Shown here one piece after another: positions 6,950 through 18,449 of a stretch of 64,000 bases of DNA (its first letter is position 1; every line of letters starts with the position of its first letter). A model generated the notes under the pieces. It saw only the letters and a program-made list of their open reading frames with translations, made no database searches and was not told where the DNA came from. Both the position numbers and the translations under genes were made by a program. Source of the DNA: Gottschalkia acidurici 9a (lineage in GTDB: Bacteria; Bacillota; Clostridia; Tissierellales; Gottschalkiaceae); contig NC_018664.1 in the NCBI RefSeq assembly GCF_000299355.1, positions 2,712,380-2,776,379 on the forward strand. The letters run 5' to 3'.

Positions 6950-7418
6950 CATGAACTTCTTATGCTTTCACATAAGCACAGACTATATCATAATCTTAAG
7001 ACTTACTAAACTTAATTAGTTTCAGAAAGAAAATAAAACTAATTTTCACTTAAGATCCTCCCTGTTTCCCTTAACTTTAAGGTACGAGATCTCTCTCTAG
7101 TCGTTGAACGTTCCTCTTTTCGAGGCTTCGCTGCTGATCACCCATTTTTTTCAGTGTTTAGGATTTAACCATGCACCATCTACTCAATTTTTTCTGCTTT
7201 CGCAACTTTCACGCTTAAGCTTTTTTCATCTTTACGTTGTAGTAAGGAAGCTTAGTTCCTTGCAGTCGCTTAGTATTCAAAGGATAAGCGAATGACACAA
7301 AATCAAAGATTTTGGTTATCTGCTTGAGTAGCTTTAGGGACTCCCAGCAATTAAAGGAGTTTTGGATAGACTTTTATCTATCACTCTACACTCTTTGTGA
7401 ATGTAGGGAGCTTTTTAT
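6950..7418 (-). ncRNA. Group I self-splicing intron core (no ORF)
   Basis: Read on the minus strand, all four conserved core strings occur in order. P is AATTGCTGGGAG (7352-7341). Q is GATCAGCAGCGAAGC (7139-7125). R is GTTCAACGACTAGAG (7108-7094). S is GATTATGATATAGTC (6995-6981). The CAGC of Q complements the GCTG of P (P4), and ACTA of R complements TAGT of S (P7). A P9-like hairpin, CTTATG/CATAAG, follows S at 6959-6976. Near the 5' side GATAGA/TCTATC (7364-7381) forms another stem. No homing endonuclease or transposase is encoded inside. The splice sites cannot be fixed by eye; the core boundaries given are approximate. It lies in the leader of the membrane-protein gene at 5114-6676, on the same strand. 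Confidence 0.88.
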
Positions 7419-8771: not shown

Positions 8772-8794
8772 GAACTTACAACTAGATAAAGATA

Positions 8795-8907
8795 AATCTT
8801 CAGGGCAGGGTGAAATTCCCTACCGGTGGTTATAGTCCACGAGCTGCTTGTGCAGTTGACTTGGTGAAATTCCAAGACCGACAGTAAAGTCTGGATGGGA
8901 GAAGATT
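8795..8907 (+). ncRNA. FMN riboswitch (RFN element)
   Basis: The conserved strings occur in order: AGGGCAGGGTGAAATTCCC, TACCGGTGGT, then ACTTGGTGAAATTCCAAGACC, GACAGTAAAGTCTGGATGGG, closed by AATCTT/AAGATT (P1, 8795-8800 with 8902-8907). FMN binding should favour the downstream terminator and lower expression of the riboflavin genes. Confidence 0.97.
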
Positions 8908-8968
8908 CTATTTTCGGTATACTAATTTAAATTATTAAATTTAGATTTATATTGATTTATTTTTGTAG

Positions 8969-9047: not shown

Positions 9048-10145
9048 ATGGAATCAGTTTATATGAAAAGAGCTATAGAGTTAGCTAAAAAAGGTGAAGG
9101 TCATGTTAGTCCTAATCCCTTAGTTGGAGCAGTCATTGTGAAAAATGAAAGTATAATAGGTGAAGGTTACCATGGGTTTTATGGTGGAGATCATGCAGAA
9201 ATAAATGCATTAAAAAATTCTACTGAAAGTGTTGAAGGTAGTACTATGTATGTTACTTTAGAACCTTGCTCTCATTTTGGGAAGACACCTCCTTGTGTTA
9301 ATGCTATTGTGGAAAATAATATAAAAAAGGTAGTCATAGGGCTAAAAGACCCTAATCTTTTAGTATCTGGTAGAGGTATCCAAATACTTAAATCTAATGG
9401 AATTGAAGTTGTTACCAGTGTATTAGAAGATGAATGTAAAAAGTTAAATGAAATATTTTTAAAGTATATTACAACAAAGACTCCTTTCGTAATACTAAAA
9501 TATGCAATGACTCTTGATGGCAAAATAGCAACTCATATTGGTGATTCTAAATGGATCTCTAATTCATTGTCTAGAAAACATGTCCATGAAATTAGACATA
9601 AACTCTCATCCATCATGGTTGGAATAGGGACTGTTCTGAAAGACAATCCCAGTTTAAATACACGCTTAGAAGATAAAGAAGGCTTAGATCCAATTAGAAT
9701 TATAGTAGATACGAAGGGAAGAATTCCATTAGACTCTAAAGTTATTAATCTAAAGTCTAGTTCAAGGACTATAGTTGCCACTACTGAGTTAGCCCCTAAA
9801 GACAAATTGAAAGCCTTAGAAGATAAGGATGTAGAAATAATAATTACACCAGTTAAGGATAGTTATGTAGATCTAATTTATCTTTTAAAATCACTAGGAA
9901 GTAAAGGAATTGACAGTATTCTTCTTGAGGGTGGCAGCGAACTAAGTTTTAGTGCCTTACAAGAAAACATTGTTGATAAAGTAGTTGCATTCATATCACC
10001 TAAAATAATTGGTGGAAGTTCGGCTAAAACCCCTATAGGTGGTACTGGTATTGAATTTATGAAAGATGCTATAAATCTTAACAATATATCTTTAAAAACG
10101 TTTAATGAAGATATTATGATTGAAGGTTATATTGAAAAGGAGTGA
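9048..10145 (+). CDS. ribD: Bifunctional riboflavin deaminase/reductase RibD
   Basis: A 365-residue cytosolic enzyme for the second and third steps from GTP to riboflavin: zinc-dependent deamination of the pyrimidine, then NADPH-dependent reduction of its ribosyl side chain. The N-terminal deaminase has HAEINAL and PCSHFGKTPPC, giving the His and two Cys zinc ligands. The C-terminal reductase domain starts near residue 150 (FVILKYAMTLDGKIAT) and contains LLEGGSELSFSAL. Length is normal. It is the first gene of ribD-ribE-ribBA-ribH and is controlled by the FMN riboswitch. A spaced AAAGGATG precedes the ATG. Confidence 0.97.
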   Translation: MESVYMKRAIELAKKGEGHVSPNPLVGAVIVKNESIIGEGYHGFYGGDHAEINALKNSTESVEGSTMYVTLEPCSHFGKTPPCVNAIVENNIKKVVIGLKDPNLLVSGRGIQILKSNGIEVVTSVLEDECKKLNEIFLKYITTKTPFVILKYAMTLDGKIATHIGDSKWISNSLSRKHVHEIRHKLSSIMVGIGTVLKDNPSLNTRLEDKEGLDPIRIIVDTKGRIPLDSKVINLKSSSRTIVATTELAPKDKLKALEDKDVEIIITPVKDSYVDLIYLLKSLGSKGIDSILLEGGSELSFSALQENIVDKVVAFISPKIIGGSSAKTPIGGTGIEFMKDAINLNNISLKTFNEDIMIEGYIEKE

Positions 10146-10805: not shown

Positions 10806-10838
10806 ACAATTTAATTTAAAAATTAAGGAGTGATATTA

Positions 10839-12050
10839 ATGTTCCACTTTAATACTATAGAAGAGGCTATCGAAGATATAAAAAACGGAAAAATAGTAGT
10901 AGTTGTTGACGATGAAAATAGAGAAAATGAAGGCGACTTACTCATGGCTGCTGAAAAGGTAACCTCAGAAGCTATAAACTTCATGGCAAAACACGGCAGA
11001 GGCCTAATATGTATGCCTATAATAAAGGAAAGATTAGATGAACTTAATATAAACCAAATGGTGAGCAAAAATACTGATTCTCATCATACTGCTTTTACAG
11101 TTTCAATAGACGCCATAGACACAACTACTGGAATATCTGCTCATGAAAGATCTCATACCATTTTAAAAGTTCTAGATTCTAGTTCAACAAGTAGCGATTT
11201 CAATAAACCAGGTCATATATTCCCCCTAGAGGCTAAGGATGGTGGTGTTTTAAGAAGACCTGGTCACACTGAAGCTGCTGTTGACTTAGCTAGATTGGCT
11301 GGGCTATACCCTGCTGGAGTTATTTGTGAAATTATGAATGAAGATGGATCTATGGCTAGAATACCCGACCTTATGACTTATGTTAAAGATCATAATTTAA
11401 AAATAATTACCATAGCAGATTTAATAGCTTTTCGCCGTAAAACAGAATTGTTAGTAAAAAAAGTTTCTGAGTGTAATCTACCTACAAAGCATGGTGACTT
11501 TAAAATGGTGGGATACGAAAATATTTTAAATGGTGAGCATCATATAGCACTAGTGAAAGGTAATATATCTAGTGATTCACCAGTTCTAGTAAGAGTTCAC
11601 TCAGAGTGTCTTACTGGAGATGCTTTTGGTTCTTTAAGGTGTGATTGTGGAGAACAGCTTGATGAGGCTATGAAAAAAATAGAATCTGAAGAATCAGGTG
11701 TACTTCTATACATGCGTCAGGAAGGTAGGGGGATTGGACTTATAAATAAAATAAAAGCTTATAATCTTCAGGATAGTGGTATGGATACTGTTGAGGCTAA
11801 CTTGGCACTAGGTTTTCCTGATGACATGAGAGACTATGGTATAGGGGCTCAGATACTTTCTGACCTTGGAATAAAAAAGATTAAGTTAATGACTAATAAT
11901 CCTAAAAAACTTTCTGGACTTTCTGGCTATGGTATAGAAATTGTAGATAGAGTTCCTATACAGATGAATCACAATGAAAAAAATAAGCATTATCTTGAAA
12001 CTAAAAAAGAGAAGTTAGGACATATTCTAAATTTTAAGGAGGAAAAATAA
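10839..12050 (+). CDS. ribBA: Bifunctional 3,4-dihydroxy-2-butanone-4-phosphate synthase / GTP cyclohydrolase II
   Basis: 403 residues. The N-terminal DHBP synthase half carries [14 protein letters not shown] and [19 protein letters not shown]. The C-terminal GTP cyclohydrolase II half begins near 200 and carries [20 protein letters not shown] (zinc-binding cysteines) and [10 protein letters not shown]. It supplies both precursors of riboflavin: the four-carbon unit from ribulose 5-phosphate and the pyrimidine from GTP. I place the start at ATG 10839, eight bases after AGGAG; an in-frame GTG at 10830 overlaps the ribosome site. Both halves look complete. Confidence 0.97.
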
Positions 12051-12051
12051 T

Positions 12052-12513
12052 ATGAAAATCTATGAGGGAAATTTAGTATCTGAAGGACTAAGATTTGGAA
12101 TTGTTATAGGAAGATTTAATGAATTTATAGGATCAAAGCTTCTATCTGGTGCTTTAGATGGTTTTAAACGTCATGGTGTACATGAGGATGATATTGATAT
12201 TGCTTGGGTTCCTGGTGCATTTGAAATTCCTCTTATAGCTAAGAAAATGGCAAAGTCTAAAAAGTACGATGGTGTTATTTGTCTAGGTGCTGTTATAAGA
12301 GGTTCTACTCCACACTTTGATTATGTGTCTAGTGAAGTTTCAAAAGGAATAGCTAGTGTATCTTTAGATACTGAAATACCAGTTGTCTTTGGAGTTCTAA
12401 CTACTGATACTATAGAACAAGCAATAGAAAGAGCAGGAACAAAAGCAGGAAATAAAGGATATGAAGCTAGTATTACTGCCATAGAGATGGCTAATTTGCT
12501 AAAAGAAATTTAA
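12052..12513 (+). CDS. ribH: 6,7-dimethyl-8-ribityllumazine synthase
   Basis: A 153-residue enzyme that condenses the two RibBA/RibD products into lumazine. Landmarks are [38 protein letters not shown] (with the catalytic histidine) and [11 protein letters not shown]. It normally assembles into a 60-subunit icosahedron. It starts one base after the ribBA stop, with the ribosome site AAGGAGG inside the end of ribBA, and ends before a 20-bp terminator, so it is the last operon gene. Confidence 0.97.
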
Positions 12514-12627: not shown

Positions 12628-13221
12628 CTACTCAAAGCATTCTATAAATTCTTTTACCACATTTGGATCAAACTGCTTTCCCGCTTCATTTTTTATTATG
12701 TATATAGCTTCCTCTGAACTTTTCGACTCTTTATAAGGTCTCTCTGCAACTATGGCATCATATGTATCTATCACACTTACTATCCTAGCACTTAATGGAA
12801 TTCTTTCTCCTTTTAATCCTTGAGGATACCCTTCTCCATCCCATCGTTCATGGTGATAGTATGCTATATCTAATATAATTTTTAGTTCATCAGATTCAAA
12901 ATAATTATTTTCTTTGTTGAACATGTATAGTAATATATCTCTACTATAGGTTGGGTGTTTTCTTATTTCAGTAAATTCTTCTTGTGAGATTTCTGAAGGC
13001 TTGTCTATTATTGATTGAGAGATTTCGATTTTACCTATGTCATGTAATAGTGCTCCCCATGATACTGCTTGTATGTCTTTTATTTTATTATAAAATCTAC
13101 TAGATAGTATCTCTGTATATTTAGATACATTTTGGGAATGCTCCCATGTATATTTACTGTTTTTACTTAATATTGTTTGAAGTATATCTATTAAATCTCT
13201 GTCTTTATCTAATTTGAGCAT
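12628..13221 (-). CDS. HD-GYP domain protein (probable cyclic-dinucleotide phosphodiesterase)
   Basis: About 197 residues, essentially a single HD-GYP domain: [12 protein letters not shown] helix, the metal-binding [10 protein letters not shown] (His60-Asp61), [31 protein letters not shown] with the GYP triplet, and [15 protein letters not shown]. Such domains hydrolyse c-di-GMP to GMP. There is no fused receiver or membrane part. The start at 13221 follows GGAG; a longer frame to 13314 has no ribosome site and begins next to the stop of the upstream XRE gene. It probably forms a two-gene unit with that regulator. Confidence 0.88.
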
Positions 13222-13314
13222 AGTTGATCTCCATTTCACATCTTTATACATAGTATTTATATACTCAATTATATAAATACTTTCTAAGTAATAGTTACAA
13301 AAAGCAACTTTCAT

Positions 13315-13527
13315 TTAATTGCTTTTAAATATAGTCTCTATATCTAATTTTTCAATAATAGCTTGTCTGTACTTTTCACCAGAACGTCTACCTCTTAATA
13401 TATCAGTAAGATAGTTTTCATTAACTCCAATATCTTTTGCTAGTTGTCTTTGTGTCATATCAAGTTCTACAAGTCTTTTCCTTACTTTCATAGAAAAATA
13501 CGGTATCGTATTTCGATTACTTTCCAT
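13315..13527 (-). CDS. Small XRE-type helix-turn-helix protein
   Basis: About 70 residues consisting of one lambda-repressor-like domain: VRKRLVELDMTQRQLAKDIG, NENYLTDILRGRRSG, then KLDIETIF. This is a minimal Cro-like regulator without a ligand domain. The start at 13527 (MESNRNT) is chosen because AGGAG lies eight bases upstream; the frame is open to 13587 without another ribosome site. It precedes the HD-GYP gene on the same strand by about 90 bases. It may regulate that gene or its own promoter. Confidence 0.82.
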   Translation of the reverse strand: MESNRNTIPYFSMKVRKRLVELDMTQRQLAKDIGVNENYLTDILRGRRSGEKYRQAIIEKLDIETIFKSN

Positions 13528-13959
13528 TCCATCAACTCCTATCCTTATGATATTTAAACTATACTTCAATGTTGTTTTTTGTATCAAGGTAGGTTAAACT
13601 GTTGTTGTAACTTGTATTTATAGTTACACTTAGTGACTACTTTCTCCTCTTAATCAGAATCTATATAAAGTCAAACTTCCTGTCCTTAAAATCAGTTTCC
13701 ACCGCAATCCATAAAGAATATCTTCTAGTAAATCTTCCTAATAACTTTCTAATTAAATAAACCAAAATACCAAACTGTTTAAATAATCTAAGCGATGTAT
13801 CTATAAAAGTGAATTTTTAAATATTAAAAGCTTCCTATTTGTGTTATTTTAGTTATATATCTATAAATCTATCAAAGTAAAGCTGAGTCTTTATAGTACC
13901 TATTAATTTTTAAAGTATGTTAAAATTACTTATATATTTTTCATTTAAATTTTACTAAT
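13528..13959. other. Intergenic region of about 430 bases, mostly featureless
   Basis: No gene with a start and ribosome site was found. On the minus strand 13661-13816 is open for about 51 codons and reads like protein in part (RRYSLWIAVETDFKDR) but has no ATG, GTG or ribosome site. It could be a fossil. The region is the leader between the leftward promoter near 13960 and the small XRE gene. Confidence 0.4.
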
Positions 13960-14616: not shown

Positions 14617-15273
14617 CTATTTGAAGGAGTTTATATAATTTTCATATCCTCTATTTCTAAGAGTACAAGACGGACATTCTCCACATCCACTTCCTTTAAT
14701 ACCATTATAGCAAGTTAATGTTTCATTTTTAATTACCTCTAATACCCCCAAGTCATCCGCCATCTTCCAAGTTTCCTCTTTATCTATCCACATTAAAGGA
14801 GTATGTACTACATACTCATAGTCCATAGATAAGTTCAAAGTTACATTTAAAGATTTTATAAATACATCTCTACAATCCGGATATCCACTAAAATCACTTT
14901 GTGAAACTCCAGTTATTATATGTTTTATATCCCTTTGTTTTGCAAATACCGCTACAAACGTAAGAAATAGCATATTTCTTCCATCAACACATGAATTAGG
15001 TACTTCACCTTCACTTGCCTCTTTATCTACTTTTATATCTGTTCTTGTAAGAGAGTTTGGAGCTAATTGATTTAAAAGTGACATATCTAATATGTGATGT
15101 TCAAAATTATGCTTTTTACATATTTCCTTGGCACATTCCAATTCTTCGCTATGTCTTTGATTATAGTCAAAAGACACTGCTATTACTTCCTTAAATCTTT
15201 CTTTAGCCCAAAATAAGCAAGTTGTACTATCTTGGCCGCCGCTAAAGACTACTACTGCACTTTCATTTTTCAT
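14617..15273 (-). CDS. queC: 7-cyano-7-deazaguanine synthase QueC
   Basis: A 218-residue ATP-dependent enzyme making preQ0 from 7-carboxy-7-deazaguanine and ammonia. The PP-loop motif is [16 protein letters not shown] at the N-terminus. The C-terminal zinc site is [20 protein letters not shown] with four cysteines. The ribosome site AAGGAG overlaps the end of queE. It is the last gene of a preQ1-riboswitch operon of five genes. Confidence 0.97.
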
Positions 15274-15277
15274 TTGC

Positions 15278-15943
15278 TTACACTCCTTTTTGATTTGGAT
15301 CCCATATAAATTTGTGAAGTTGTAATTGAAAAGTTACATCGTTCATATTATTTTCCTTTATGAACTCAACTATATCTTTTGCATCAATATTTTCGTATAC
15401 TCCACTTATATATACATTTGTTTTCTTAGTTAAATCAAACTGTTCTATAATCAATTTTGCTTTTTCTAAATCTTCCATGCTACCAGCTACAAACTTTACT
15501 ACATCTTTTTCTTTTAGATATTCAAAATTTTCTAATAACATTTCATTTTCCATATTGCTATAAGGCAATTTGTAGTCCATAGTGAATCTCAGTTGATTTA
15601 TTTTTATGTCTTGAAATCTTTTTAAACTTATACTTCCATTAGTCTCTATCTCTATTGAAATATCATTATCCTTAGAAAGATATTCTAGTAATTCATATAT
15701 GTCCTTTTGTATTAGGGGTTCTCCCCCTGTTAAAGTTACATTTTTTACTTTAGTTTGCTTTATATAATTATAAATTTCTTCTTTAGTCATGATTTCATAC
15801 TTTACATCACTCTTATTAGCCCACTGTGTATCACAGTATCTACAGTTTAAATTACATTCTGCAAATCTTATAAATAGAGCTAACTGTCCACTTAATTTGC
15901 CCTCACCATTTATACTTATAAACTTTTCAACTACTCTATACAT
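15278..15943 (-). CDS. queE: 7-carboxy-7-deazaguanine synthase QueE (radical SAM)
   Basis: A 221-residue radical SAM enzyme. The [4Fe-4S] motif is [16 protein letters not shown] (C-x3-C-x2-C), followed by [15 protein letters not shown]. It rearranges 6-carboxy-5,6,7,8-tetrahydropterin to the deazapurine ring. The N-terminus, [16 protein letters not shown], is characteristic. It has an AAGGGAT ribosome site, starts eight bases after queD and precedes queC by four bases. Confidence 0.97.
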
Positions 15944-15951
15944 GTTATCCC

Positions 15952-16371
15952 TTACCTTTCATATGTTGCTGAATTAGTTGGTGTTTCAAAAACTGTAATT
16001 TTCCTTACGTTATATCCTTTTTCCTCTAATTTGTCATAGAAATATTTAGAGAAGTTTTCTGCCGTTGATCTAAAGTCTATAGTTATGACTTTAAATCCAT
16101 CTTGCACTATATTTTCTAGTGTTTCTTTTCTTAGACTATTCTCTTCTATTATTAATGCATGGTCAAAGTAATCAAGCATCTCTTTTAAGTCTTTTTTTAA
16201 ATCTCCAAAGTCTGTCACCATGCCTTTAAACTCTCCTGATTCTTTTAGCGTTTCTGATCCCACTTCAGCATGAACAGTCCATGTATGCCCATGTATGTTT
16301 CTACATTTCCCATTGTAATTAGAAAGAAAGTGAGCACTATCAAAGGTATTTTGCGCTTTTAATATATACAT
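15952..16371 (-). CDS. queD: 6-carboxy-5,6,7,8-tetrahydropterin synthase QueD
   Basis: A 139-residue member of the PTPS fold. Zinc ligands are the histidines in FDSAHFL and NIHGHTW; the catalytic cysteine is in NGKCRNIHGH. The later PTSENFSKY-like motif is present as RSTAENFSKYFYDKL, and the C-terminus has VFETPTNSATY. It converts dihydroneopterin triphosphate to the carboxypterin used by QueE. GTP cyclohydrolase (folE), which supplies the substrate, is not in the window. Confidence 0.97.
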   Translation of the reverse strand: MYILKAQNTFDSAHFLSNYNGKCRNIHGHTWTVHAEVGSETLKESGEFKGMVTDFGDLKKDLKEMLDYFDHALIIEENSLRKETLENIVQDGFKVITIDFRSTAENFSKYFYDKLEEKGYNVRKITVFETPTNSATYER

Positions 16372-16384
16372 TCATATCCCATCC

Positions 16385-17155
16385 TTATTTATTTTTAATT
16401 TTATCACCATAATAGCAACATCCAATCGCGCCATTTAACTGTGGTTCATCTAAAGTTATTATTTCTTCATACTCATCTTTTAGGTACTTTCTAATTGCAT
16501 AATTTCTAGCTACTCCACCACTTATAACAAGTTTTCTTCCCTTAAACTTGTTAAGCAGTGGCTGTAGTCTCTTAAACATGGAGTAATTAACTCCTGCACA
16601 AAGACTCTCTATACTTACTCCCTCTGCAATTTTCCCTATAAGTTCAGATTCTGAAAATACTGCACAAGTTGAATTTAATTCAACTGGGTCTGTATAATAC
16701 CTATGCATATAGTCTACGTTTATTTCCAATACGTTTGCCATATTCTCCAAAAATCTTCCACATGAAGCAGCACATTTTTCATTTAACTCTAAATCAGTAG
16801 TTATACCTTTCTCTATCTTTGCTATCTTTACATCTTGTCCACCTATGTCTAGTAGGATAAAATCTTTTAAGTGTGTTTGATAAAATACCCCATAAACATG
16901 AGCCTTTATTTCATTTATAGGTCTAAAGTTATTTAAATTCACATTATTTCTTCCATATCCAGTTGAGATGCACTTATCTACTTTATCTATATCTAGCTTT
17001 TTAAGATCTACGCTTAAACCTTTAATGTCATCATAATTACAGTAGTTCTTATAAAATGACATGGTACTAATTTTGAAACTATTTATAATCTTGCTGTCTT
17101 CCATTATAACTACCTTTACTTCTCTACTTCCAAGATCTATCCCTAGTATTCTCAC
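16385..17155 (-). CDS. BadF/BadG/BcrA/BcrD-family ATPase, 2-hydroxyacyl-CoA dehydratase activase-like
   Basis: A 256-residue member of the ASKHA ATPase family. ATP-binding motifs are GIDLGSREVKVVIM and LLDIGGQDVK. Cys128 (in EKCAASCGRF) and Cys164 (in NSTCAVFSESE) sit close to the positions that hold the shared [4Fe-4S] cluster of the homodimer in HgdC. Such activases use ATP to push one electron to very low potential onto a partner Fe-S enzyme. Here the partner is the HgdB-like protein encoded immediately upstream, with a 4-base overlap. The gene is inside a preQ1-riboswitch operon with queD-queE-queC, so a role in deazaguanine metabolism is inferred. Confidence 0.92.
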   Translation of the reverse strand: MRILGIDLGSREVKVVIMEDSKIINSFKISTMSFYKNYCNYDDIKGLSVDLKKLDIDKVDKCISTGYGRNNVNLNNFRPINEIKAHVYGVFYQTHLKDFILLDIGGQDVKIAKIEKGITTDLELNEKCAASCGRFLENMANVLEINVDYMHRYYTDPVELNSTCAVFSESELIGKIAEGVSIESLCAGVNYSMFKRLQPLLNKFKGRKLVISGGVARNYAIRKYLKDEYEEIITLDEPQLNGAIGCCYYGDKIKNK

Positions 17156-18153
17156 AGTATTCCCTCTTTTCTATCATGTAACATGTCTATAAATGCTTCT
17201 AGTCTAAGTTTAGTTCTTGCATCTAATCTATTTAATTTATCTCCCTCTATATTTAAAATAGGGATATTTAGTTTATCTTTTATTACTATATCCTGTACTG
17301 CTCTATAACAAAAACTCTGTGTATAATGAATAATTCCATCTAATTGTCTTAACTCTAATTGCTTTTTTATTTCAGATATTCTCACATTTATATCATAAGG
17401 ATAAGTGTAGTCAAAGTATTGATAGTATATATCTTTAGCTTCTTCAATTCTTGGAAATGCGAACTCCCTTTGAACTTCGTTATATACTATTTTTGCATCT
17501 AAGTTTTCAACAAACTCGTATATATCTCCAGTCATAGGAGGAACCCCTATATATCCTAATCTTAGTTTTTTCTTATTTTCATTTCTATTCTCTATTTCTC
17601 CTATAACTCTAGCTAGATTACTCTCATAGCTTTTCATATCTCCTTCGAAGTCACTTAAGCTTATTTGATAAAGATGATTTTCAAATCCTGTTGCTTTTTC
17701 ATCTATGAAAGTAAGCTCATCTATTTTTCTAGCTAATTTTCTTACTTTATTGGCCTTCTCTCTTATATTTTCCACTTCACTTAAAGAAACATTAAACATA
17801 TTCATAAACTTAATTGTTTCTTTTTTTACATCTTCATATTTATGAGTATTTGGATATGAAAATGGATATATTTTTATTCCTCTAAGTTCTAATACTTCAA
17901 TAAGTGCCTTAGTATTCGAGCAATCACCCTCCATAACTCCTACTATTTCATTTATATTTTCCTCTATGCAGACTCCATATATGCCTTTTATCCAAGCACA
18001 TAAGCTTTTAGGAAATCCGTCTCTTTCTGCTATTTCTATATACTTGTTATACTTTTCTGAAGTTATAAATATATTATTAAGATCTACTACTTTGTATCCA
18101 GCAGCAATAAGAACTTCAGAAGGTACTGTTGTTGTTATACCTATCTTCTTCAT
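17152..18153 (-). CDS. 2-hydroxyacyl-CoA dehydratase (HgdB)-like Fe-S protein
   Basis: A 333-residue protein of the HgdB/DUF2229-like group, first gene after the preQ1 riboswitch. It has four cysteines at conserved-looking places: Cys52 and Cys62 (SLCAWIKGIYGVC), Cys78 (VMEGDCSNT) and Cys282 (YTQSFCYRAV), enough for one [4Fe-4S] cluster. The RLGYIGVPPMTGDIYEFVE and LDGIIHYTQSFC segments match the second half of dehydratase subunits. It is a single subunit, unlike the HgdA/HgdB pair of amino-acid fermentation. Its activase overlaps its 3' end. Acting on CoA thioesters seems unlikely given the queuosine context; a reductase or radical reaction in preQ0/preQ1/queuosine metabolism is a hypothesis only. 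Confidence 0.85.
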   Translation of the reverse strand: MKKIGITTTVPSEVLIAAGYKVVDLNNIFITSEKYNKYIEIAERDGFPKSLCAWIKGIYGVCIEENINEIVGVMEGDCSNTKALIEVLELRGIKIYPFSYPNTHKYEDVKKETIKFMNMFNVSLSEVENIREKANKVRKLARKIDELTFIDEKATGFENHLYQISLSDFEGDMKSYESNLARVIGEIENRNENKKKLRLGYIGVPPMTGDIYEFVENLDAKIVYNEVQREFAFPRIEEAKDIYYQYFDYTYPYDINVRISEIKKQLELRQLDGIIHYTQSFCYRAVQDIVIKDKLNIPILNIEGDKLNRLDARTKLRLEAFIDMLHDRKEGIL

Positions 18154-18183
18154 TTATTACACCTCTAATTTAATTTTAGGCAT

Positions 18184-18247
18184 AAAAAAAAGGGCATAAA
18201 AAGGCCCTCAAAAACAAAAACTATCTTAGGCAAAAAATAGATAGTTT
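18184..18247 (-). terminator. Tandem terminator hairpins of the preQ1 riboswitch
   Basis: Two stems lie between aptamer and first gene on the minus strand. AAACTATCT/AGATAGTTT (18218-18247) is followed by TTTTTGTTTTT. AGGGC/GCCCT (18191-18208) is followed by seven or more T. The aptamer tail GGGC could pair with the GCCC of the second stem, offering a switch. Confidence 0.75.
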
Positions 18248-18252
18248 ATAAG

Positions 18253-18294
18253 CCCTAGTTTTATTTATAGACAGGATGGTGTGAATGAACTGTC
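18253..18294 (-). ncRNA. PreQ1-I riboswitch aptamer
   Basis: On the minus strand: P1 GACAG (18294-18290) with CTGTC (18274-18270), and a loop TTCATTCACACCATC with the conserved TTC..C.ACACC pattern. An A-rich tail TATAAATAAAACTAGGG follows, whose GG can pair with the loop CC to form the H-type pseudoknot. The spacing matches known class I preQ1 aptamers. It controls the HgdB-like/activase/queDEC operon. Confidence 0.9.
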
Positions 18295-18449
18295 TTAATT
18301 AAGTTTTATATACACTTTAACATAATTATTAGTTAATTGTAAATATTAATCTTAAAATCTGAAAATTAGTATATTTATCTATTGTTATAACACGAATATT
18401 TGTGTATAATTTTAGTTACTTAAAAATTTGACCTTTTAGGAGGGATTCT

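Follow-up and report, generated by a model that had tools for sequence, protein, structure and literature searches.

The 64,000-nucleotide stretch of Gottschalkia acidurici 9a DNA analysed here (contig NC_018664.1, positions 2,712,380 to 2,776,379 of the forward strand; hereafter the window) carries on its minus strand an operon in which the queuosine genes queD, queE and queC are preceded by genes for an HgdB-like iron-sulphur protein and an activase-type ATPase. These two genes, referred to below as the pair, are the subject of this report: we consider them a candidate replacement for QueF, which reduces preQ0 (7-cyano-7-deazaguanine) to preQ1 (7-aminomethyl-7-deazaguanine). In minus-strand order, the operon and its leader consist of the following features.

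18314-18343, minus strand: promoter-like site (TTTACA, 18 nucleotides, TAAAGT) from a consensus scan; weak evidence, the region holding 8 such sites against 3.6 expected from shuffles
18252-18294, minus strand: preQ1-I type-I-like aptamer of 43 nucleotides, with P1 GACAG/CUGUC, UU after the 5' strand, UC before the 3' strand, an A-rich tail and GG
18211-18223, minus strand: U-rich stretch complementary to the aptamer tail, a putative antiterminator strand
18190-18209, minus strand: intrinsic-terminator-like hairpin with U tail, a single hairpin where shuffles average 0.2, also present in the fold (z -2.27)
17152-18153, minus strand: HgdB-like single-subunit iron-sulphur protein, in our proposal the catalytic subunit of a preQ0 reductase driven by ATP (333 amino acids; PF06050, E 1.7e-34)
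16385-17155, minus strand: acyl-CoA-dehydratase-activase-type ATPase (BadF/HgdC family), which would pump electrons to the HgdB-like protein (256 amino acids; PF01869, TIGR00241)
15952-16371, minus strand: queD (TIGR03367 above cut-off)
15278-15943, minus strand: queE, clostridial type (TIGR03963, 338 bits, above cut-off)
14617-15273, minus strand: queC (PF06508, E 4.1e-84; TIGR00364 above cut-off)

The two genes of the pair share four bases (17152-17155). This order, from aptamer and terminator to queC, had been described in an earlier sequence-only reading, and it held when the region was read again and matched to profiles. That reading had spoken of terminators in the plural; we found one terminator-like hairpin. 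It had also stated that queF, queG and queH are all missing from the operon, which is correct. Elsewhere in the G. acidurici 9a genome queG and queA are present, and neither queF (PF14489) nor queH was found in the whole genome at E <= 0.001.

The distribution of the pair is complementary to that of QueF. In a class sample of 243 genomes, the pair protein was found in 19, QueF in 28 and QueC in 39; the 39 QueC genomes divide into 18 with the pair and 21 with QueF, with none having both and none having neither. A phylum sample of 373 genomes, mostly different from the first, contained the pair protein in 63, QueF in 108 and QueC in 116, and these 116 split into 55 with the pair and 61 with QueF, again without a genome having both or neither. 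In the union of the samples, 71 of 151 QueC genomes have the pair and 80 have QueF. No genome in either sample encodes both the pair protein and QueF, with or without QueC. The two are thus mutually exclusive and jointly exhaustive in 151/151 QueC genomes, as expected of a non-orthologous replacement. The anticorrelation with queF that the sequence-only reading had proposed to look for is complete, and the findings that it had named as speaking against its idea, an intact queF in the host and no association with que genes elsewhere, did not materialise.

Borderline matches were handled as follows. Thirteen of the 41 class-sample matches to PF14489 were dropped as presumed FolE-like proteins (E 2.7e-7 to 5e-4, profile positions 1-58 to 1-61, open reading frames of 186-253 amino acids), including three that exceed the curated cut-off. 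Pair protein and QueC are both absent from all 13 genomes, and dropping them leaves the split unchanged. Class-sample matches to PF06508 weaker than E 1e-40 were regarded as other PP-loop enzymes; among the matches listed, the next one has an E-value of 2.9e-10. Genome G223 has its QueC in two parts, on two contigs, which entered the counts as one. Genome G315 of the phylum sample, which matches positions 1-59 of the QueF profile with E 2.7e-19, was kept as a QueF genome; it has no QueC.

Fisher tests on these counts yield very small p-values under an assumption of independence that these genomes do not satisfy. Exchange within families is better evidence. Both alternatives occur within eight of the 33 pair-bearing families and within at least two genera; the number of genera is a lower bound, since the search for mixed genera drew its QueF genera from the class sample alone. 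In four of the eight mixed families (f36, f75, f85 and f185), QueC accompanies both alternatives, and in the remaining four it is missing from one or both sides. Within a single genus, one genome (G063) has the order aptamer, hgdB, activase, queD, queE, queC, and two others (G149 and G217) have aptamer, queD, queE, queC, queF. An open reading frame of about 198 amino acids lies between queE and queC in G063 and G149 and is left out of these orders. QueF (PF14489) is encoded just behind queC on the same strand in G149, G217 and a further genome, G131.

The sequence-only reading had offered the pair as a reductase for the QueF step or for the QueG/QueH step, in which epoxyqueuosine on tRNA is reduced, or as acting on another deazaguanine compound. 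The steps were compared in 41 genomes. Of these, 20 carry the pair (19 from the class sample, among them the host, and G001 from the host's family), and 21 are the class-sample genomes with both QueF and QueC. QueA is present in 49/49 genomes (these 41 and a further eight pair genomes without queC), and exactly one of QueG and QueH is present in 41/41 (QueG in 15, QueH in 26). Among the 19 class-sample pair genomes, 12 have QueG, seven have QueH and none has neither; G001 has QueG. Of the steps compared (QueF, QueA, QueG/QueH), the conversion of preQ0 to preQ1 is the only one without a known enzyme in the pair genomes, and the QueF step is therefore the one to be filled. Replacement of QueG or QueH by the pair would keep it in the same pathway and among reductases, of which QueG is also an iron-sulphur enzyme. 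It would leave the gap where it is, at QueF, since all 20 pair genomes compared already have QueG or QueH, as do the 21 QueF genomes with QueC. Action at the QueG/QueH step was rejected on this count, and we regard it as extremely unlikely. The anticorrelation with queG and queH that had been anticipated was not seen, one of the two being present with or without the pair; of the two steps first considered, the complementarity points to that of QueF.

The two genes of the pair travel together. An alignment-based scan gave 280 relatives. The named relatives are the 80 best of these, and so lean towards close relatives of the window; a single-sequence scan of genome contigs had given no relative, probably since its peptide patterns came from variable stretches. 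In 80/80 named loci an activase is found no more than 400 bases from the HgdB-like gene, and it adjoins that gene in the 20 loci of our first alignment (own family and class sample). Genes of the que series are found on the same strand within 5.4 kb in 64/80 named loci, and an aptamer is still upstream in 15 of the 16 that lack them. In the evenly drawn class sample, que genes stand beside the pair in 13/19 loci and the aptamer is present in 11/19, a count that omits one further pattern match, in locus L035, which sits elsewhere. The proposal that the pair is associated with que genes or preQ1 aptamers in other genomes is borne out by both sets. Outside the host's class, we inspected 4-kb pieces of the best 28 of 61 loci. 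The activase was seen in 23 of these 28. Four loci encode proteins 64-65% identical to the window protein, three of them with queC next door and two with the aptamer.

Relatives of the pair occur in Clostridium, Tepidibacter, Caloramator, Ruminiclostridium and other Clostridia, in Natroniella, Halonatronum and Fuchsiella, and in members of the Fusobacteriota such as Propionigenium and Ilyobacter. The pair protein had no match among phage records and one among plasmid records, on the 962-kb megaplasmid pILYOP01 of Ilyobacter polytropus (L178), which carries the series pair, queD, queE, folE, queC. Two arrangements stand apart. In family f83 of the phylum sample, six loci (L078, L081, L082, L084, L086 and L088) show no activase next to the HgdB-like gene within the 4-kb piece; the piece for L078 is truncated, and in L088 an activase match starts about 1.2 kb downstream. 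Genome G075 has two separate loci (L041 and L029), queC-queD-queE and hgdB-activase, each with a preQ1-I-like aptamer of its own.

The aptamer at the head of the operon does not reach the Rfam thresholds. It went unreported in the window at Rfam's own thresholds, a scan of the window leader with E up to 5 was likewise empty, and Rfam scans of the window and nine loci gave no PreQ1 match at the gathering score. The PreQ1 model, RF00522, scores the aptamer of one relative (L027) at 14.6 bits, far under its gathering score of 39. We used a search pattern built from the aligned leaders of relatives. The motif was found less than 700 nucleotides upstream of the HgdB-like gene in 75/80 named relatives with at most one mismatch, 72 of them mismatch-free. 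At up to two mismatches the pattern occurs 78 times on the plus strand and never on the minus strand of the named loci; at up to four substitutions, 81 times and twice. A Markov control (two 1.25-Mb replicates, plus strand) gave no match at up to two mismatches and five at up to four. Because of its position upstream of the gene in 75/80 relatives and the empty control at two mismatches, the motif is more than chance despite its sub-threshold Rfam score, and the preQ1-I aptamer seen by the sequence-only reading stands on pattern and conservation. The five named loci without it are L095, L130, L147, L151 and L163, of which L095 and L147 have hardly any upstream sequence.

Type-I preQ1-I aptamers are marked by UU and UC, according to the review PMC11625349. 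The UC before the 3' strand of P1 and the UU mark are present in 75/75 of the relatives' aptamers and identically in the window; the UU mark is partly forced by the search pattern, and the UC mark is free of it. Together with the A-rich tail and the downstream terminator, these marks are shared with the type-I riboswitch of RF00522; the low score of the relative's copy and the lack of a match for the window copy set the motif apart. A complement of the A-rich tail lies downstream of 55/75 aptamers, compared with 5/79 control pieces, which fits the antiterminator/terminator switch that the same source describes for Bacillus subtilis. The same motif is found ahead of queD in seven of 13 que-bearing stretches from QueF genomes (L046-L049, L053, L056 and L057). 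It was not found in the other six (L051, L052, L054, L055, L058 and L059), nor in a fourteenth stretch, L050, in which queF stands apart from the other genes. A model built from the 75 clostridial aptamers (leaders of L027 and L090-L169) might reveal further preQ1 switches that are at present unlisted.

QueA is encoded in all nine pair genomes that lack QueC (the eight mentioned above and G052). In one of them (G275), aptamer, pair and a QueT-family gene follow in succession; the other eight show no aptamer. In another (G274), a transporter gene of the Vut_1 (PF02592)/COG1738 type lies directly ahead of the pair; the longest open reading frames overlap by four bases, the second start being uncertain. 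Both families are described as carriers of queuosine precursors in PMC11130926. These transporters fit an uptake of preQ0 followed by its reduction, and speak against a role of the pair in making preQ0. They also bear on a different explanation, in which the pair supplies electrons to the radical S-adenosylmethionine enzyme QueE, or to QueG, and is no preQ0 reductase. Radical S-adenosylmethionine enzymes need low-potential electrons, and the pair stands beside queE in many operons. However, the pair is kept in these two genomes without queC, next to precursor transporters; the sampled QueF genomes have queE (13 stretches) without the pair; and it would go unexplained why QueF was found in none of the pair genomes. 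We consider an electron-supplying role very unlikely.

Several observations weigh against the pair being a preQ0 reductase. Nine of the 80 pair genomes have no QueC. In the seven of these other than G274 and G275, none of the 15 neighbouring open reading frames scanned is related to queuosine and the aptamer pattern was not found; the neighbours include an Asp/Glu racemase, RNase PH, Ham1, a CAP-domain protein and others. A second function of the pair in those lineages is possible. Within the class sample, eight of the 19 pair loci lack the aptamer and six stand away from que genes. Of the 28 loci inspected outside the host's class, the 24 with proteins 44-49% identical to the window protein have neither a que gene nor an aptamer in their 4-kb pieces; there the link to que genes is weak, and complementarity alone carries the case. 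The complementarity counts themselves come from genomes that are not independent, and complementarity with QueF was compared for the pair alone among candidate gene families. Lifestyle could also sharpen the split, given that QueF carriers probably include aerobes and the named pair carriers are anaerobes.

The pair might act on another deazaguanine or on an unrelated CoA-type substrate and merely share the operon, with another, unseen gene replacing QueF. The pair genomes without QueC and the copies lying among unrelated genes would suit this explanation, as would the RefSeq record of Ilyobacter, which labels the two proteins 2-hydroxyacyl-CoA dehydratase and acyl-CoA dehydratase activase. 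Against it stand the complete complementarity in 151 genomes, repeated within families, and the preQ1-type aptamer on nearly all named copies that stand without que genes; the unseen third enzyme would have to track the pair without exception. We judge it improbable, and the genomic setting argues for a deazaguanine rather than a CoA-ester substrate.

The HgdB-like protein has a single Pfam match, to the HGD-D/HgdB superfamily (PF06050, 120.4 bits, cut-off 28.4), and no match to the QueF family PF14489. It contains four cysteines, as first noted, at positions 52, 62, 78 and 282. Cys52, Cys78 and Cys282 are invariant in 125 distinct aligned sequences (window included) and aligned to cysteines of HadB and of the double-cubane cluster protein (DCCP); Cys62 is present in 84/125. 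An AlphaFold2 model from a 20-row alignment has a mean pLDDT of 88.4 and a pTM of 0.85. The solved folds nearest to this model are BzdN (Z 31.3, 2.6 Å over 314 residues) and DCCP (Z 30.4, 2.6 Å over 313 residues), tied as top matches, with HadB close by (Z 29.1, 3.0 Å over 314 residues); VIA-align rows under Z 8 were left out of the comparison. The predicted fold and the cysteines match the superfamily of activase-driven iron-sulphur enzymes.

DCCP is also the best sequence match in the PDB. Membership of the double-cubane family was ruled out by a score of 55.6 bits against a cut-off of 350 (NF040772) and by the presence of just three invariant cysteines. The invariance of these three, and their alignment to HadB and DCCP, points to a single [4Fe-4S] cluster with an open site, not to a double cubane. 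At E <= 0.001 the HgdB-like protein matches only itself in the host genome, which makes a homodimer probable, though such a search could miss a distant subunit. Candidates for substrate binding are polar residues identical in 98% or more of the sequences, such as Asn225, Glu226, Gln228, Arg229 and His276. In Ruminiclostridium sufflavum, the HgdB-like open reading frame (L026:6704-7828, L157:8001-9101) carries about 42 additional residues and an insertion near window residue 172.

The activase scores 170.9 bits with TIGR00241 (cut-off 125.4), and its best match in the PDB is 1hux (E 4.1e-37). Cys128 and Cys164 are invariant in 119 distinct aligned activase sequences; we take them to be the ligands of a bridging cluster, as in the HgdC family.

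Taken with the genome comparisons, the protein analysis makes it very probable that the two proteins together are an oxygen-sensitive reductase that depends on ATP and converts preQ0 to preQ1 in place of the unrelated, NADPH-dependent QueF. The reaction, cluster type, electron flow and switch logic that we infer are as follows. A homodimeric activase would hold one bridging [4Fe-4S] cluster through the two invariant cysteines of each chain and, with ATP hydrolysis, pump low-potential electrons into a [4Fe-4S] cluster held by Cys52, Cys78 and Cys282. The nitrile of preQ0 would bind the open iron site, and four electrons, delivered in one-electron steps together with protons, would reduce it to the amine of preQ1. 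The product would feed TGT, QueA and QueG/QueH, and would shut the operon through the leader aptamer and terminator. Related systems spend about two ATP per electron; at that rate, making one preQ1 would take about eight ATP in place of two NADPH, a bearable price for a trace cofactor. DCCP and nitrogenase reduce small multiply bonded substrates, which makes a nitrile plausible as a substrate and is not evidence for it.

To our knowledge, QueF is the only enzyme of primary metabolism known to convert a nitrile to an amine. The pair would probably represent a second natural solution: a two-gene, ATP-driven preQ0 reductase with a single [4Fe-4S] cluster, from the 2-hydroxyacyl-CoA dehydratase/benzoyl-CoA reductase superfamily, present in anaerobic Bacillota and some Fusobacteriota, repeatedly exchanged with QueF, and in Clostridia often under the same preQ1 riboswitch. 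If so, the chemistry of the superfamily would reach beyond CoA esters, to a free nucleobase and to a nitrile. The pair would also complete the queuosine pathway in many anaerobes, as 71 of the 151 QueC genomes look incomplete if QueF is required. A published reconstruction of queuosine synthesis in gut bacteria counts QueF among the genes defining full synthesis (PMC6593275), and a 2024 study uses the presence of QueF, along with other genes, to infer the type of pathway (PMC11130926). Rules based on QueF could misclassify pair-bearing organisms. We found no literature tying the pair to queuosine or preQ1 among open-licence PMC papers (subscription papers and bioRxiv lay outside the search), and the word queuosine is absent from the main text of the C. 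acidurici 9a genome paper (PMC3519856). Superfamily and reaction are both known; their combination appears to be new.

Elsewhere in the window, a small helix-turn-helix-like protein, directly followed by an HD-domain (HD-GYP-like) protein, was recognised by eye downstream of the operon (12628-13587, minus strand). A group I intron lies between two open reading frames at 6959-7410 on the minus strand (RF00028, 75.6 bits; gathering score 50). An FMN riboswitch (123 bits) occupies 8792-8910 on the plus strand, with genes downstream that by eye resemble riboflavin genes (9048-10145 and 10830-12513).

Among characterised systems, DCCP and its reductase DCCP-R (6eno, 7yzm, 7yyl) resemble the pair in combining a single-subunit HgdB fold with one activase, and the fold likeness is close (Z about 30, 2.6 Å, 312-313 residues). 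DCCP, which binds an [8Fe-9S] cluster, differs in its further aligned cysteines, which have no counterpart among the three invariant cysteines of the HgdB-like protein. HadBC and its activator (3o3m; 4eht) share the activase family, the fold (Z 29) and, in HadB, cysteines matching all three invariant ones. HadBC is a two-subunit dehydratase of CoA esters, whereas the HgdB-like protein matches only itself in the host genome and sits in a queuosine operon. The class I benzoyl-CoA reductases BzdNO and MbdONPQ (8s02, 9gai), which carry out an ATP-driven reduction, are similar in fold (Z 28.6-31.3). They differ in being heteromeric and in acting on a CoA-bound arene, and we know of no nitrile chemistry in this class. 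QueF, finally, catalyses the reaction proposed for the pair, at the same place in the pathway. It is an unrelated, metal-free enzyme that draws on NADPH; the pair would depend on ATP-driven electrons and iron-sulphur clusters.

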